Assembly (NCBI RefSeq): GCF_001651855.1
Contig: NZ_LNQC01000049.1
Location: 62,001-126,000, forward strand
Direction: 5' to 3'
DNA length: 64,000 nt
Source of the DNA: Sinorhizobium americanum
GTDB taxonomy: Bacteria; Pseudomonadota; Alphaproteobacteria; Rhizobiales; Rhizobiaceae
The notes beneath the pieces were generated by a model, which saw only the letters and a list, made by a program, of their open reading frames with translations, ran no database searches and was not told the DNA's origin. Positions 24,373 to 32,258 of the stretch are shown here, one piece after another (positions within the stretch are counted from its first letter, which is position 1; each line of letters starts with the position of its first letter). Both the position numbers and the translations under genes were made by a program.

Positions 24373-25935
24373 ATGGGACCATTGTTCAGGAACGCCGGGC
24401 TCCCGGCCTACCATGAAGCAATGTTGTTCGTCCGCATGAAGCCTCAGCCGCTCCAGCCAAGCTTCGAAGCCACCTTCGAGGCGGCACGCGCGTCGTTCGG
24501 CAGCGGGCTTCAGGCCCTGTCCTTTTTCGAGCGGGCTGGGCTGGTGAAACGCGTTACGCCCATATCACGGGAGTCTCCCCATTACGCCAGCCGGATGCTG
24601 GTGCGGCCAAGCCGTGACGGCAGCGCCAAGCCGGAACTGCTCGGGGTGCCCGAAAATGAGGGGGACGGGTGGTCGGCACCCGCCCTGAACTTGAACGCTG
24701 CCATCGATCTGCGAACACCGGGCGGAGCTGCGAGCCTGGTCGAGTTGGTGAGCGACGTCGACTTGCGGCAGCTTCAGCTGGCTCTCGCGGGAGATCCGAC
24801 CGTTGCATCCGTATCGCGGGTGCCGCTGCGCTACCTGGTGGCAAAATCGCCGCGAAAACCCGCACGGCGCGCCTCCAAGTCAGCGACACCCGGGGCTCGC
24901 GGGCGCATTGCCACGGAACCGCCGCCGACCCATACGATGTGGAACCTCCGCAAGATCCGGTGGGACGAAGCCCGCAATCTGAGCGGCTTCGACGACGCCG
25001 GCAGGATCAAGGTCGCAGTGCTCGATACAGGTATCGACGCGGATCACCCGGACCTTAAAGACCAGATTGGTGGATATGTATACGAGCACCCCGATCTTCC
25101 GGCGGCGAGCTCGGTCCAGGATCTGGTCGGCCATGGCACGCATGTGGCAGGGACGATCGCGGCGACCATCAACAACGATCTCGGGATCAATGGAATATCG
25201 CGAGCCCAGATCCACGCCTTCAAGATTTTCGATGATCGCCCCGACCTGCTGGCCTATCCTGACGGAACGGCGGAGTTCGCCTATTTCGTCGATCCGGTGA
25301 TGTATCTGCGGGCGCTGCTCGACTGCGCCGATGCGGGCATTGACGTCGTCAACCTCTCGATCGGCGGCGGCGGCGCGCCCGACCCGACGGAGAGTGCAGC
25401 CTTCGAGGCGTTGCTTGCCAATGGAACGACCATCGTTGCGGCGATGGGGAACGAGCGGCGCGACGGCAGTCCGATCTCCTACCCTGCGGCGATACCGGGG
25501 GTCATCGCCGTGGGCGCAACAAATCTACAGGACCGGATCACCAGCTTTTCAAACCGCGGCAACCACATAACGATCACCGCGCCCGGTGACGCGATCTGGT
25601 CTACCCTGCCGACCTATCGCGGTCAGATGCGTTGGAGAGCGGAGCGAGGGCCCGACGGGCGCTGGAGGCAGGGAAAGCCGGATATACGCGAGACGGACTA
25701 TGATGCATGGCCCGGAACATCGATGGCTTCTCCGCATGTCGCTGCCGCCGCGGCGCTCTATATCGCAAATGGTGGCGCGAGGGATCCCGCGGTCATCCGC
25801 GGCGCATTGGCTTCGAGCGCCGACAAGGTGCCGGCCATGAGCGGCCAAGACTTCACGCCCGATTTCGGCTATGGTCGTCTGAACTTGGAGCAGCTCATTG
25901 GCGGCATAGGCACCAGGGGCTCGGGCAATGACTGA
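24373..25935 (+). CDS. Subtilisin-like serine protease (S8) with ~180-residue N-terminal domain
   Basis: A 520-residue S8 peptidase with the complete triad: Asp218 in VAVLDTGIDADHPD, His254 in GHGTHVAGT and Ser450 in GTSMASPHVAAA. The oxyanion Asn is Asn360 in AAMGNERRDG. The first ~180 residues show no signal peptide. They contain an I9-propeptide-like stretch (DVDLRQLQLALAGDPTVASV) and then a basic linker. The protein is therefore probably cytoplasmic or secreted by an unusual route. The ATG is preceded by only a weak GAGGCAACC. A small gene overlaps its last 8 nt and is likely co-translated. The target is unknown. Confidence 0.9.
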   Translation: MGPLFRNAGLPAYHEAMLFVRMKPQPLQPSFEATFEAARASFGSGLQALSFFERAGLVKRVTPISRESPHYASRMLVRPSRDGSAKPELLGVPENEGDGWSAPALNLNAAIDLRTPGGAASLVELVSDVDLRQLQLALAGDPTVASVSRVPLRYLVAKSPRKPARRASKSATPGARGRIATEPPPTHTMWNLRKIRWDEARNLSGFDDAGRIKVAVLDTGIDADHPDLKDQIGGYVYEHPDLPAASSVQDLVGHGTHVAGTIAATINNDLGINGISRAQIHAFKIFDDRPDLLAYPDGTAEFAYFVDPVMYLRALLDCADAGIDVVNLSIGGGGAPDPTESAAFEALLANGTTIVAAMGNERRDGSPISYPAAIPGVIAVGATNLQDRITSFSNRGNHITITAPGDAIWSTLPTYRGQMRWRAERGPDGRWRQGKPDIRETDYDAWPGTSMASPHVAAAAALYIANGGARDPAVIRGALASSADKVPAMSGQDFTPDFGYGRLNLEQLIGGIGTRGSGND

Positions 25936-26191
25936 CATCATGTTCACGATCCGCGCCGACGTCAGCGTCGAAGAGCGCGAACGCCTGTTGATCAGGATCC
26001 AAGCCATTCCGGGTGTCGAGCTGGCGGCCCCGGTCAAACGCGACAGTGGCAGCCAGACCTTGCGGCGGATTCATTTCGCTCGTTTGAGAAGACATTCCGA
26101 AGCGACCGATTGCCTGTCGGTAATCAGAGGGATGCCGGAGGTGGAGGACGCAAACATACCGGCCCGACGAGGTGGCGCCAACGGAACGTAG
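25928..26191 (+). CDS. Small protein coupled to the subtilase, possible I9-like inhibitor/chaperone
   Basis: 87 residues; the ATG lies inside the last codons of the subtilase gene (8-nt overlap), so translation is coupled. The pattern is beta-alpha-beta repeated: FTIRADVSVEERERLLIRIQ AIPGVELAAPV, then IHFARLRRHSEATDCLSVIR with GMPEVEDANIP. The xIPGVxxA and GMPEVEDA ends resemble those of peptidase-inhibitor-I9 or propeptide modules, where two halves pack as a ferredoxin-like fold. A protease inhibitor or folding helper acting in trans is a reasonable hypothesis, unsupported by a search. No signal peptide is seen. Confidence 0.65.
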   Translation: MTDIMFTIRADVSVEERERLLIRIQAIPGVELAAPVKRDSGSQTLRRIHFARLRRHSEATDCLSVIRGMPEVEDANIPARRGGANGT

Positions 26192-26292: not shown

Positions 26293-27600
26293 ATGGCAGT
26301 CGGCGCATCCCAACGTTTGCACGACGGCGTCGCGGCTGTCGAAACCATGACGCGCTTTGCGCTTGCGGTGCTGGCGCTCGCCTCCGGCGTCTATACCTAT
26401 CTCGGCGTGCGCAGCATTCTCGACGGCTCGGCGACCGCGGTCTTCTTCGCAGCGATGATCTATTCGGCTTCGGTGTCCGTCGGAATCTACGCCTTCTGGA
26501 CCTATATGGCCCGCTTCTACCCGCATGTGACCACCCATACGGGCCGGGCCGCGATGCTGGGCGTCATGGCTTTGGGCGCGGCCATGATCATCGCCATGTC
26601 GAGCTGGCTCAATGCGGCGGCGCTGGCCGGTTCGGCCGCGCTCGAACAGCATCTGGCGCAAACGGTGGAGGACTATACGGCCGATCTCGACCAGGCGCAC
26701 CAGAACGCCCTTGCCGCCCAGAGCCTGCTGCCGGACATCCAGCGTGCCTCCGAACGCTTCGCCCAGCTTGCCGCCTCCGAACGGCAGACTGGCGCGCTCA
26801 CCGGGACGACGGGCTCGGGAAGCGTGGTACAGCTCTTGTCGCAAATGTCGGCGCAGATGAAGGAGCTCGAAAACGGCATCAACGCCTCGCGCGAACAGGT
26901 GACGACGCTCTTCAACGAGGGGCAAAAACGGCTTGAAACGATGCGCACACTGGTCTCCGCGCCAGGAGCGATCGAACCGCGCGCCGACCAGTTCTCCTCG
27001 GAAGTGGTGGCGCTCACGGGCGTCATCGCTTCGCTCGGCCAGACCTCGATCGCGCCTTCGATCCGGCGCGCCGCGGACGACCTGTCGCTCGGCTTCATCG
27101 CCCCGGTGGCCGACGGCGGCGATGCCGATCTCGTCAACCGCCAGGACCAGGTGATGGAGACGGTGCGGGCCTCGGTGGCGGCGCAGTCCAAGGTGCTCTC
27201 AGAAGCGGCCGACGAAATCCTCGCCCGGGCGTTGGTGGCCGAGCGGCGCTTCGTCCCGCTCTCCTCCGCCGAGGCGGTGTTGCGCTATGCGGCTGATTTC
27301 ATTCCGGCCTGGGCCGGGGCGATTTCCATCGACCTTTTGCCGGGCGTGCTGGTGTTCATTCTCGCTGCCGTGCACGGGGCAATCCGCAAACAGGAGGAGA
27401 AGCTGCCCTTTGCCGAGCGCATCACGGCGGCCGAACTTCTGCAGGCGCTGGACGTGCAGCGAGCGGTAACGAAGAACGGCACCAATCTCGGGGAAATGGT
27501 CAGGCAAGCGGAGGCCGAAAGCAAAGCGGAGGAAACGAACAACATCACCAATCTCGACCCGAGAACGCGTACAAAGGAGCGCGCGCATGAGGATCGATGA
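26293..27600 (+). CDS. Membrane protein with long periplasmic or cytoplasmic helical region, unknown function
   Basis: About 435 residues from the ATG at 26293 (GGAG 8 nt upstream). Hydrophobic segments lie near residues 20-42, 48-70 and 86-106 and again near 343-364 (SIDLLPGVLVFILAAVHGAI). Between them is a ~235-residue Gln/Glu/Ala-rich region likely to be helical or coiled coil (DLDQAHQNALAAQSLLPDI, SQMSAQMKELENGINASREQ). The last 70 residues are charged and hydrophilic. The stop lies inside the next gene (14-nt overlap), implying a joint function with the ClpP-fold protease. I do not recognise the family. Confidence 0.75.
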   Translation: MAVGASQRLHDGVAAVETMTRFALAVLALASGVYTYLGVRSILDGSATAVFFAAMIYSASVSVGIYAFWTYMARFYPHVTTHTGRAAMLGVMALGAAMIIAMSSWLNAAALAGSAALEQHLAQTVEDYTADLDQAHQNALAAQSLLPDIQRASERFAQLAASERQTGALTGTTGSGSVVQLLSQMSAQMKELENGINASREQVTTLFNEGQKRLETMRTLVSAPGAIEPRADQFSSEVVALTGVIASLGQTSIAPSIRRAADDLSLGFIAPVADGGDADLVNRQDQVMETVRASVAAQSKVLSEAADEILARALVAERRFVPLSSAEAVLRYAADFIPAWAGAISIDLLPGVLVFILAAVHGAIRKQEEKLPFAERITAAELLQALDVQRAVTKNGTNLGEMVRQAEAESKAEETNNITNLDPRTRTKERAHEDR

Positions 27601-28378
27601 CCCTTTCAAGGCGCTGATGCGCCTCGACGACGGCGTGCTGATGCGCGGCGCGTTCTACGCACTGCTATCGGCTGCTGCGGTCTTCCTGCTGATCGACATG
27701 CGCGACCTGACGGCCATGAACGCCGAGCTGCCGGCGTTCGATCCGTTCCATGAGAACCGGCCCATCCTGCCGCCGGCCCTGACCGAAGGCGGGGCGACTC
27801 CGCGCGTGAAACCCGCAAGCCCGGATGAAGTGCTGCGACGATCGATGACATTCGAACTCGCTTCCGGCGGCGTCTTGCTCGCCGAGGGCACGATGGATCC
27901 CGGCGCCAGCGGGCGTTTCGCCGAGGAGATCGCGGCGCGCGGCGAATATGTAAAGACGGTGGCGCTCAATTCTCCCGGCGGTTCGGTAGACGACGCCTTG
28001 GCGATTTCGAGCCTGATCCGCGAAAGAAAGCTTGCGACCAAGGTGGCATCGCGAGCGCTCTGCGCCTCCTCCTGCCCGATCGTCTTTGCGGGCGGCGTCA
28101 GCCGTATCGCCGAGAAGGACGCGATCGTCGGTGTGCACCAGGTCTTCAATGGCGGCAGCGGCCGGCAAACGGCAGATGAAGCGATGTCTGCGGCACAATC
28201 CACCACGGCCCGGGTGACCCGCCATCTCGACACGATGGGGATCGGCGCCGGCCTTTGGATCAACGCGCTCGAAACACCGCCGGACCGGCTCTATTATCTG
28301 ACATCGGCGGAAATGGCCAAGTTCAAGCTAACAACGCAGCCGCTCGCCACCGCCAGGAAGAAGGCCGGGGCAGGATAA
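27587..28378 (+). CDS. Membrane-anchored ClpP/SppA-fold serine protease-like protein
   Basis: 263 residues. An N-terminal hydrophobic anchor (about 20-37) is followed by a domain with ClpP-like landmarks: LNSPGGSVDDAL (oxyanion loop), ALCASSCPIVFAGG with the presumed nucleophile Ser161, and VGVHQVFNGG with His184 at the ClpP histidine position. This is the pattern of predicted periplasmic ClpP-like proteins (COG3904 type). The two cysteines flanking the serine may form a periplasmic disulfide. It begins within the preceding membrane-protein gene, so the two are translationally coupled. Substrates are unknown. Confidence 0.8.
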   Translation: MRIDDPFKALMRLDDGVLMRGAFYALLSAAAVFLLIDMRDLTAMNAELPAFDPFHENRPILPPALTEGGATPRVKPASPDEVLRRSMTFELASGGVLLAEGTMDPGASGRFAEEIAARGEYVKTVALNSPGGSVDDALAISSLIRERKLATKVASRALCASSCPIVFAGGVSRIAEKDAIVGVHQVFNGGSGRQTADEAMSAAQSTTARVTRHLDTMGIGAGLWINALETPPDRLYYLTSAEMAKFKLTTQPLATARKKAGAG

Positions 28379-28388: not shown

Positions 28389-28457
28389 CCCGAGGGAATT
28401 CGGATTTGACAAAGTTTTGCCAAAGAGCGTCATCCTGGCCGAAGTATGGAGGCTGAC

Positions 28458-28709
28458 ATGGCCACGATGAACGTATCTTTGCCCGATCCTCTGAAGGACT
28501 GGGTGGAAGCACAAACGCGGACAGGCCGCTATGCGAAAGCCAGTGCCTATGTGCGGGATCTCATCCGCAGGGATCAAGAGCGCAATGACAAGATTGCCAT
28601 CATGCAGCGCTTTGTCGATGACGGGCTGAAAAGCGGCGATGGAAACCGCTCAAAGGACGAGCTTTTCTCGGCGGACGTAGCGCGGGAAATGCGGCGCGAC
28701 CCCAAGTAA
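28458..28709 (+). CDS. ParD-family antitoxin, apparently without its toxin
   Basis: 83 residues in the form of a ParD/CopG ribbon-helix-helix antitoxin: MATMNVSLPDPLKDWVEAQT is the N-terminal DNA-binding strand-helix, and ASAYVRDLIRRDQERND is the second helix and dimer core. TGGAGG precedes the ATG at 28458; an upstream in-frame ATG at 28446 is poorly placed. A TTGACA hexamer lies 46 nt upstream. ParE normally overlaps the parD stop. Here a TAATG junction opens a frame beginning MGFRLVA that soon loses any ParE resemblance and runs into the next small gene. The toxin appears deleted or decayed. Confidence 0.8.
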   Translation: MATMNVSLPDPLKDWVEAQTRTGRYAKASAYVRDLIRRDQERNDKIAIMQRFVDDGLKSGDGNRSKDELFSADVAREMRRDPK

Positions 28710-29559: not shown

Positions 29560-29979
29560 TCATTGATAGGCCCATGGATTCACGACGGGAAGTCCCGCCG
29601 CTTCGAAGGGACTGACATCGCGCGTCGCGACGAGGAATCCACGCGAGGCGGCAATGGCGGCAATATATCCGGCGGGCGTAGGAAATCCCTTCCCCGCCGC
29701 TCGCGCTCTCACGGCCAGTTCTGCGTAATGCCGGGCAGCTCCGATGTCGAACGGCAATACACGATCACCAAACAGTTCGACGACGCCGTGAAGCGTTTCG
29801 GTCAGAGCCTTCTTGCGCCGACCATCGGGCAACGCACCGACCCCAAATAGCAGTTCGGCCATTGTCACACTGGACAGGTACAAGCTTTCAGCGACCTGTT
29901 CGTTCAACCAGGAGCGCACGGCCGGATCGGGAGATGGTTTCATCGCTTCGGAGACGACATTCGTATCCAAGACGATCAT
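29560..29979 (-). CDS. PIN-domain toxin (VapC/FitB type) lacking an expected acidic residue
   Basis: 139 residues forming a PIN domain: MIVLDTNVVSEAMKP gives Asp5, SSVTMAELLFG gives Glu42 and LVATRDVSPFEAAG gives Asp121. The third acid of the metal site normally lies in a TPDGYIAA- or ADAQIAA-like segment; here the sequence is FPTPAGYIAA with Ala103. PIN toxins cleave RNA using these acids and Mg2+, so activity may be reduced or lost. The change needs only GAC to GCC. Its ATG overlaps the antitoxin stop by 4 nt. The remaining fold looks complete. Confidence 0.88.
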   Translation of the reverse strand: MIVLDTNVVSEAMKPSPDPAVRSWLNEQVAESLYLSSVTMAELLFGVGALPDGRRKKALTETLHGVVELFGDRVLPFDIGAARHYAELAVRARAAGKGFPTPAGYIAAIAASRGFLVATRDVSPFEAAGLPVVNPWAYQ

Positions 29980-30230
29980 TCAAACCTCACTGGCTCTGCC
30001 GGCGTCTTGTCACGTACCTGCTCAAACACGACGAAATCGTCGTTCGTCAGGCCCAGTCGCCGGCCGAGTTCGGCCAAGGCATCCCCCATGCGAACGCGCT
30101 GCGCGGGCTTCACCACACTTTCCAGAATATCGCGGACTTCCGCCTCGGTGCTGCGACCGTGCGTCGCCGCCCGCACGCGCAAAGCGCGATGCACTTCCTC
30201 GGGTACATTCCGAACTGTCAAGATGGCCAT
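29976..30230 (-). CDS. FitA/VapB-type ribbon-helix-helix antitoxin
   Basis: 84 residues starting MAILTVRNVPEEVHRALRVR, the FitA-like ribbon-helix-helix pattern, followed by STEAEVRDILESVV. The C-terminal part (NDDFVVFEQVRDKTPAEPV) would wrap around and block the PIN toxin. The stop overlaps the toxin start (ATGA), as in functional type II pairs. An in-frame TTG 6 nt upstream of the chosen ATG is an alternative start. These complexes usually bind their own promoter. Confidence 0.87.
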   Translation of the reverse strand: MAILTVRNVPEEVHRALRVRAATHGRSTEAEVRDILESVVKPAQRVRMGDALAELGRRLGLTNDDFVVFEQVRDKTPAEPVRFE

Positions 30231-30377
30231 AGTCAAACCCCGAACCCGCTTTCAATGACAGCAATATGGCTAGTGCGCAGTCATGCCGCAAGTCTACTAA
30301 TTGGACTTCGCAATCAAACCGTGGAAAAGCAGTGGCGGGAAGGCTCATGCCTCAGCCAATAGCGCCAACGCGAGCAA

Positions 30378-30443: not shown

Positions 30444-31925
30444 TCATGCATGGCCGAGCGGCAGGGCGACGAACCGCGTCGCACCGCTCGACTGGATGCG
30501 GAGCAGCGCGGCCAATTTGCCTTCTTTTCGAAGCGACACGAGATCGCGGCGGAAGTCTCTGGCGTTCGAAACCGCCTTGCCGCCGACGTCGAGAATGATG
30601 TCGCCCGCCTCAAGCCCATGTTGCGCCGCCGCTCCCTTCGGATCGATGGCGACGACGACCATGCCTTTTTCGGCGGCGCCGGCCACCTTGCTTGCCGGCG
30701 CAAGCAGCAGCCCGAAGTCTTGCCCGCCGCTAGGAGCAGCGCCGCCGTCGCTTGCAGCCTCGATCGGGGCCGCTCGCTCTTCCGGCATCGTTGCCAGATC
30801 CAAGGTGATCTCCATTGGCGCGCCATTGCGGACGATGCTCACCGTGACGGAGGTGCCTGGAGCCTTCGCGCCGACCTTCTGGGCCAGTTCACGCGGATCA
30901 TCGATCGTCGCTCCGTCGACCGCGGTAATGAGATCGCCGGATCGCATACCGGCTTTGCCGGCCGGGCCGGCCGGATCCGCCTCGTCGACGAGCGCGCCCT
31001 TGGCTTCTTTCAGTCCTAGGCCCTCGGCGATGTCGGGAGTGACCTGCTGTTCCTTGATGCCGAGCCAGCCGCGCGTCACATGGCCCTTGGCCTTCAACTC
31101 GGCGATAACGGCTTTTGCCGTGTCGGCCGGAATGTCGAAGCCGATGCCGACCGAACCGCCGGAGGGCGAGAAGATCGCCGTGTTGACGCCGATCACATCG
31201 CCGTTGACGTCGAAGGCCGGCCCGCCCGAATTGCCGCGATTGATCGGCGCATCGATCTGGATGAAATCGTCATAGGGACCGGCGCCGATGTCGCGGCCTT
31301 CGGCCGAAACGATTCCCGCCGTTACCGTGCCGCCGAGGCCATAGGGATTGCCGATCGCGATCACCCAATTGCCGACGCGCGGCCGCTGATCGGCAAAGCG
31401 CACATGCGGGAAATCCCGGCCGTCGACCTTGATCAGGGCGAGGTCGGTCTTCGGGTCGGTACCGACGACTGTCGCCTCGTAGCTCCGGCCGTCGCTGGTC
31501 ATCACCTCGAGCGAATGGGCATGATCGACGACGTGATTGTTGGTCACGGCATAGCCGTCGGCGGAGATGAAGAAGCCTGAACCCTCGCCCACAAGCGGAC
31601 CCTGCCCGTCATCGGGATCGGGAGCGCCGCCGTCATCCTGGGCTGCGGCCTGTTGCTGCGCAGCATCAATCTCGACGCGCACCGAGATGACCGCCGGCTT
31701 CACCCGGGCGACGATGTCGGCAAAGTCGCCGGGCTCCGCCGCCGATGGCGGCTGTACGGCATTCGGCGCCGCCCGCACGGTCGAGCCCGCACCATTCGTT
31801 GCGTGCATGGCGACAGGTTCCGCGACGAGAGCTGCAAGGCTGAGTGCGGAAACGGAGGACAGGGCTGCTAGGACGGCGGTCAGGCGGCCCGCACGCGAGC
31901 CTTTTTGGGCTGAAGAACTGGCCAT
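30444..31925 (-). CDS. degP: Periplasmic HtrA/DegP-type serine protease
   Basis: 493 residues. An N-terminal signal anchor (RLTAVLAALSSVSALSLAAL) is followed by a trypsin-like domain with the triad His in NNHVVDHA, Asp in KTDLALIKV and Ser in RGNSGGPAFD. Two PDZ domains follow, the first starting at RGWLGIKEQQV and the second near the C-terminus (GLEAGDIILDVGGKAVSNA). DegP proteins degrade or refold misfolded periplasmic proteins. The ATG at 31925 has AAGGAG 8 nt upstream; the frame extends to 31982 without a better site. It is a single-gene unit ending at the 30378 stem-loop. Confidence 0.94.
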   Translation of the reverse strand: MASSSAQKGSRAGRLTAVLAALSSVSALSLAALVAEPVAMHATNGAGSTVRAAPNAVQPPSAAEPGDFADIVARVKPAVISVRVEIDAAQQQAAAQDDGGAPDPDDGQGPLVGEGSGFFISADGYAVTNNHVVDHAHSLEVMTSDGRSYEATVVGTDPKTDLALIKVDGRDFPHVRFADQRPRVGNWVIAIGNPYGLGGTVTAGIVSAEGRDIGAGPYDDFIQIDAPINRGNSGGPAFDVNGDVIGVNTAIFSPSGGSVGIGFDIPADTAKAVIAELKAKGHVTRGWLGIKEQQVTPDIAEGLGLKEAKGALVDEADPAGPAGKAGMRSGDLITAVDGATIDDPRELAQKVGAKAPGTSVTVSIVRNGAPMEITLDLATMPEERAAPIEAASDGGAAPSGGQDFGLLLAPASKVAGAAEKGMVVVAIDPKGAAAQHGLEAGDIILDVGGKAVSNARDFRRDLVSLRKEGKLAALLRIQSSGATRFVALPLGHA

Positions 31926-32258
31926 GGCATGTCTCCTTCTTTGAACTCGGAGGTTTATTACCTGGCGACGGTGGATTGACATCAGTTTTCCAGAACAAAT
32001 TCTGGTCTTCTGGTCGAAACCACCGCGTCGTCATGACCAGATAACGCCACGACAAAAGTCAAAATGTGATATTCGCCTCATTCTTCAGATTAAATTTCGT
32101 TCATGAATTTACGTTCATCTGCATGCGACCGGCAGCCGTCATTTCGTAGCTCAGATGAGCAGAATTTCTTGAAGAATATCACCGGCGATTTTTGGAAACG
32201 GACTTAAGGTCTCCGGGTCCGGGCTGCGGCGCTCGGACCCCGCCCACCGGCCTGCAGA
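31926..32258. other. Intergenic region with short palindromes between HtrA and OsmC genes
   Basis: No coding sequence is supported here. It holds a perfect inverted repeat CCAGAA-CAAA-TTCTGG (31990-32005), a CGTTCAT direct repeat near 32098-32118 and the palindrome TTCTTGAAGAA (32166-32176). It must contain the promoter of the minus-strand HtrA gene; the first palindrome is about 65 nt from its start codon. Confidence 0.5.

Follow-up and report, generated by a model that had tools for sequence, protein, structure and literature searches.

A leaderless subtilase and its overlapping small partner gene in Sinorhizobium americanum: a candidate cytoplasmic protease-inhibitor pair

Several proteases are partnered by separately encoded proteins that act on them. 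In Aeromonas sobria, the gene for ORF2 lies just downstream of asp, which encodes the subtilase A. sobria serine protease (ASP); the C-terminal tail of ORF2 occupies the catalytic site, and ORF2 inhibits the protease with a half-maximal inhibitory concentration (IC50) of 84.3 nM (PMC5638518). Stand-alone subtilisin-propeptide-like proteins include SUB1-ProM, a prodomain mimic whose locus is adjacent to Plasmodium subtilase genes, as well as Pleurotus peptidase A inhibitor 1, yeast peptidase B inhibitor, Arabidopsis propeptide-like inhibitor 1, and Toxoplasma MIC5 (PMC6993865). Bacillus subtilis IPI inhibits the intracellular subtilisin Isp1 (PMC3901451), and Vibrio vulnificus carries the serine protease VvsA and its small downstream partner VvsB in one operon, where co-expression of the partner lowers activity (PMC11272048). 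Herein we describe a two-gene locus found in 64,000 nucleotides (nt) of Sinorhizobium americanum DNA (contig NZ_LNQC01000049.1, positions 62,001 to 126,000; “the window”). The first gene, P1 (24373-25935, + strand), encodes a subtilase of 520 amino acids, and the second, P2 (25928-26191, + strand), encodes a protein of 87 residues. Our best reading is that they work inside the cell as a self-contained pair, either protease and inhibitor or protease and chaperone, as the preliminary description of this DNA had proposed, with the inhibitor role favored over the chaperone role. More specifically, and with slightly more confidence than doubt, we propose that P1 is a cytoplasmic pro-subtilase and that P2 is a free-standing prodomain-like partner that binds the active site as an inhibitor and perhaps also helps folding.

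P1 is a member of peptidase family S8 (subtilases), based on its match to Pfam PF00082 (Peptidase_S8; E=1.1e-47, 163 bits against a cut-off of 21.8, residues 212-501) and on its catalytic residues. The catalytic domain (24937-25902, + strand) carries the full triad Asp218 (codon 25024-25026), His254 (25132-25134), and Ser450 (25720-25722), together with the oxyanion residue Asn360 (25450-25452), and all four are kept in the four proteins compared across lineages. The PADLOC models “subtilase” (1e-23) and IetS (6e-4), which represent known anti-phage defense proteases, both match inside this domain, and a PADLOC scan confined to P2 and the two genes downstream gave no match to any of them. Judged by hydropathy rather than by a signal-peptide program, P1 has no hydrophobic segment in its first 70 residues, where the highest 19-residue Kyte-Doolittle mean is 0.75, compared with 2.16 for an HtrA-like control protein of the same window (30444-31982). 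The open frame spans 528 codons versus the 520-residue protein, such that at most eight additional N-terminal residues are possible. P2 likewise has no hydrophobic N-terminus. Thus, the triad and the absence of a visible signal peptide claimed in the preliminary description both hold, as does its N-terminal domain of about 180 residues, and we infer that P1 resides in the cytoplasm.

The start codon of P2 (ATG, 25928) lies within the last codons of P1, as had been claimed, and is read in a different frame. The two genes therefore share 8 nt (25928-25935, + strand), which include the P1 stop codon TGA (25933-25935). An overlap of 8 or 4 nt occurs in 13 Sinorhizobium loci; the small frame was printed by our script for nine of these, and the other four were missed by a motif filter but have a 4-nt overlap visible at the junction. 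Comparison of the window with six relatives, of which one pair was not computable, gave ratios of nonsynonymous to synonymous substitution rates (dN/dS) for P2 of 0.071, 0.119, 0.114, 0.192, and 0.167, which are rough values given that the synonymous distance exceeds 1 in most pairs. In the same comparisons, P1 yielded 0.06-0.11 as a whole and 0.08-0.21 for its N-terminal part. Because the frame is conserved, is under purifying selection in Sinorhizobium, and has homologues beside the protease in four more lineages, P2 is judged from these comparisons to be a genuine gene, beyond what chance would produce.

P2 was initially described as I9-like, and this characterization stands for the predicted topology and fails for sequence. 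Its predicted fold (predicted local distance difference test, pLDDT, of 80) has the topology of a subtilisin prodomain, although this topology is widely shared. However, the Pfam I9 model did not match P2 in any of six homologues at E<=10 (HMMER filters on), and a search of the organism’s own genome with I9 returned two weak matches, neither of them at the P1/P2 locus. No Pfam or NCBIfam family matched P2, and comparison with solved chains gave no significant match (best E 0.67 and 0.13). Lack of sequence similarity has precedent among stand-alone prodomain mimics, three of which also have no significant similarity (PMC6993865).

A possible connection lies within P1 itself. Its N-terminal domain of about 185 residues is conserved and precedes the catalytic domain, and we suspect that it acts as a propeptide. 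The prodomain-like region covers about residues 1-160 (24373-24852, + strand), and it likewise had no Pfam I9 match in six homologues under the same settings. A low-confidence model places a strand at 16-21, helices at 31-38 and 45-54, a strand at 58-64, a long loop, a strand at 120-125, and a helix at 128-139. Although the last strand is not called and pLDDT averages only 24-58 in ten-residue blocks, the order of elements resembles that of the P2 fold. Profile alignment pairs the C-terminal half of P2 (residues 48-84; 26069-26179, + strand) with the C-terminal half of the P1 domain (residues 120-156; 24730-24840, + strand), and this match exceeds those from all 1,300 column shuffles, although the probability that hhalign itself assigns to it is low. 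The P1 domain closes with DPxV...SRVPxRYLxA (residues 141-157), in which 11 positions are invariant among the six aligned members, whereas the diverged protease of genome G048 (Hyphomicrobiales, another family) retains only the VPxRYLxA part. In a prodomain, this is the point at which cleavage, or entry into the active site, would be expected. The C-terminal tail of P2 reads [I/L]PARR in Sinorhizobium.

A lack of conserved linkage in homologues was among the findings that the preliminary description had named as refuting the pair, and linkage proved to be conserved. P1 and P2 lie side by side in every one of the five lineages detected, namely Sinorhizobium, Methylobacterium, the other Hyphomicrobiales family, Pirellulaceae, and a Deinococcus plasmid. 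The overlap, in contrast, is limited to Sinorhizobium and to G048, where the protease and the small open reading frame (ORF) share 44 nt. When the reading frames of that locus were scored with the P2 profile, this ORF reached E=0.001 and the next best 1.8. The plasmid of Deinococcus sp. QL22 encodes a P1 homologue (47% identity over 96%) with the partner 57 nt downstream, and a Pirellulaceae metagenome genome has a homologue of 48% identity with the partner 165 nt downstream. In Methylobacterium nodulans the protease is split, apparently by an inversion, with the C-terminal half directly before the small gene (4-nt gap).

P2 served as query against 60 genomes (the organism’s own and relatives) at a threshold of E<=0.001, and P1 against a subset of 36 at E<=1e-20. 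Of the 33 genomes from the organism’s own genus, 10 carry both genes and none carries just one; extra matches in these ten are scraps, namely decayed copies in G012 and G030 and a weak 37% match in G027. Genomes outside the genus gave no match to these single-sequence queries, and G048, whose pair is too diverged, is among the misses. The P2 query matched 69 of 72,556 plasmid records, all from Sinorhizobium and 67 of them typed as conjugative; the closest record, an S. americanum plasmid, encodes both proteins identically. Profiles detected P2 in 1 of 343 Planctomycetota genomes and P1 in 1 of 337 and 1 of 149, and genomes with a match numbered 1 of 398 in the window’s phylum, 2 of 397 in its order, and 1 of 255 in its class. 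Each of these counts includes the seed genome and is a lower bound, since at most 3-15 candidates were scored per genome. By these searches the P1/P2 family is rare and patchy. Catalytic-domain identity to Sinorhizobium is 56% for Deinococcus and 58% for Pirellulaceae, compared with 49% for G048, which belongs to the same order. Because members of other phyla are thus closer to Sinorhizobium than G048 is, this comparison of identities, made without a tree, suggests that the pair has moved between phyla.

We read 25 plasmid loci, 24 from Sinorhizobium plus that of M. nodulans, in a set enriched for decay because seven were picked for their fragmented proteases. P1 is broken in 9 of the 25 by a premature stop, frameshifts, an IS30 insertion, a deletion, or the M. 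nodulans split. For example, the P1 frame of S. meliloti 1021 pSymA (locus L034, NC_003037 near 1,080,265-1,082,038) stops prematurely at aligned codon 161, where the prodomain-like part closes, and P2 there is open. None of the 25 loci has a broken P2, which extends to 142 residues in two of them, and all 16 intact proteases are paired with an intact P2. This pattern is compatible with a guard gene that survives the loss of its protease. However, the asymmetry is not significant alone because P1 is six times as long as P2, the broken records are related by descent, and sequencing error may account for some of the frameshifts.

Separately, S. fredii NGR234 (loci L030 and L011; G012:C2 near 898,700-899,330) has a second, decayed pair, in which an N-terminal fragment of P1 precedes a P2-like frame and the catalytic part is gone, and a third scrap of P2 at 886,733-886,804.

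We envision that the S8 catalytic domain of P1 is made behind its own prodomain-like domain, and that translation of P2 is probably coupled to that of P1 because P2 is encoded right after it in an overlapping arrangement. P2 probably derives from, or is convergent with, the prodomain-like domain of P1. It would most likely dock on P1 in the manner of a subtilisin prodomain, placing its tail in or near the active-site cleft, and may keep the protease silent once the built-in prodomain has been cut or displaced; it may also aid folding. Such a unit would be self-contained and portable. A bolder proposal, which we hold only tentatively and consider less than probable, is that the locus is a mobile cytoplasmic protease-guard cassette with a double lock: P1’s own prodomain and a second prodomain copy borne on a separate gene. 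After the built-in lock is spent, the free copy alone would protect the cell, and the unit might resemble a toxin and antitoxin or serve as a peptide-maturing enzyme with a resettable lock.

One competing possibility is that P2 serves P1 mainly as an external chaperone, in the way that ORF2 serves ASP, and that inhibition is only a passing step. The precedent is pertinent, since the chaperone gene lies just downstream, the product reaches the catalytic site with its tail and inhibits as well, and P2 follows P1 directly in the same gene order. However, ASP is propeptide-deficient in the account cited (PMC5638518), whereas P1 keeps its conserved N-terminal domain, which we presume to act as a propeptide. 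ASP is also extracellular, whereas P1 and P2 both lack a hydrophobic N-terminus. Moreover, P2 remains open in eight Sinorhizobium records with a broken P1, though this decay may simply be recent. We therefore regard a mainly chaperone function as rather unlikely. More distant from our proposal is the idea that P2 is an unrelated protein of ferredoxin-like fold that has another role, such as that of a stress or signal sensor, and merely shares the operon. Two observations weigh against the prodomain interpretation here: the P2 topology is common to many unrelated families, some of which match its fold better, and hhalign assigns the match between the C-terminal halves of P2 and the P1 domain a probability of just 12-14%. 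The lack of a Pfam or NCBIfam family for P2 can also be read in this way. Linkage to P1 in every lineage argues against an unrelated protein, as does the similarity of its profile to that of the P1 domain, and we consider this idea improbable.

The Deinococcus locus raises another possibility, that the pair is a peptide-maturation unit in which P1 removes the leader of a ribosomal peptide, with P2 tuning P1. In Deinococcus sp. QL22 (NZ_CP097150, L148:11499-17508) a 189-residue Ser/Cys-rich ORF with a Cys-rich tail and no Pfam match precedes a tight row made up of a phosphotransferase, a HopA1+LanC fusion (Pfam matches 2e-41 and 3.5e-53), the S8 protease, and, last, the P2 homologue. Going by its gene content, this stretch resembles a lanthipeptide-type cluster with the pair inside it, a functional clue from one lineage only. 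In the other lineages no such genes were recognized beside the pair from annotation, from lists of ORFs, or from the small number of Pfam scans made, which included no directed LanC or HopA1 search and left several M. nodulans neighbors unnamed. Occurrence in one of five lineages may reflect chance or later recruitment, and we give this explanation little credence. An inhibitor of prodomain type continues to be our preferred reading of P2.

ORFs of at least 90 amino acids flanking the pair were compared across 12 regions, comprising the window, nine further regions from Sinorhizobium/Ensifer, and those of Pirellulaceae and Deinococcus, with M. nodulans and G048 viewed separately through annotation or an ORF list. 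The protease is the sole ORF recurring in all 12 regions. Close strains have more in common, as with the four downstream ORFs present in both the window and S. fredii NGR234. Among neighbors in the window, a ClpP-related protein (27587-28378; Pfam CLP_protease 1.6e-4) overlaps a preceding gene of unknown family (26293-27600), and both also adjoin the pair in S. fredii NGR234. Close to P1 and P2 are a ParD-like antitoxin ORF (28446-28709; Pfam 2.8e-4) and, on the - strand, what we take from the look of the sequence to be a VapB/VapC-type pair (29560-30236).

Returning to the described systems, the preliminary description called such pairs uncommon in bacteria. This is partly right, since a downstream-encoded chaperone of a secreted subtilase (PMC5638518) and IPI, an inhibitor of an intracellular subtilisin (PMC3901451), were already on record. 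ASP and ORF2 resemble P1 and P2 in that a subtilase has its partner gene just downstream, a likeness drawn from description. They differ in that ASP is secreted and propeptide-deficient in that account, whereas P1 has a prodomain-like domain and no visible signal peptide. IPI and Isp1 provide an intracellular bacterial subtilisin with a protein inhibitor, as P2 may be, but IPI has an all-beta immunoglobulin-like fold that is not prodomain-like (PMC3901451). VvsB is likened to P2 by description only; VvsA and VvsB each carry a signal peptide, and the published description calls VvsA chymotrypsin-like (PMC11272048). The stand-alone propeptide-like proteins share with P2 a small separate product and a prodomain topology, predicted in the case of P2. 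However, the named examples are eukaryotic, whereas P1 and P2 are bacterial, overlapping, and leaderless, and P2 has no I9 sequence match.

If P2 is a split-off prodomain, then this locus offers a bacterial case of a cis-acting lock turned trans-acting inhibitor, with the original still present for comparison. Our reading, if true, would further contribute a two-gene subtilase-inhibitor unit that is leaderless, seems to have been transferred between phyla, and lends itself to work in a laboratory strain. Because of the stop codon in its protease, S. meliloti 1021 would not show any effect of P1. Trans-acting prodomain mimics and external chaperones are already known; what is new here is a leaderless bacterial subtilase that keeps a prodomain-like domain and has what appears to be a second one as a separate gene, overlapping in the window.
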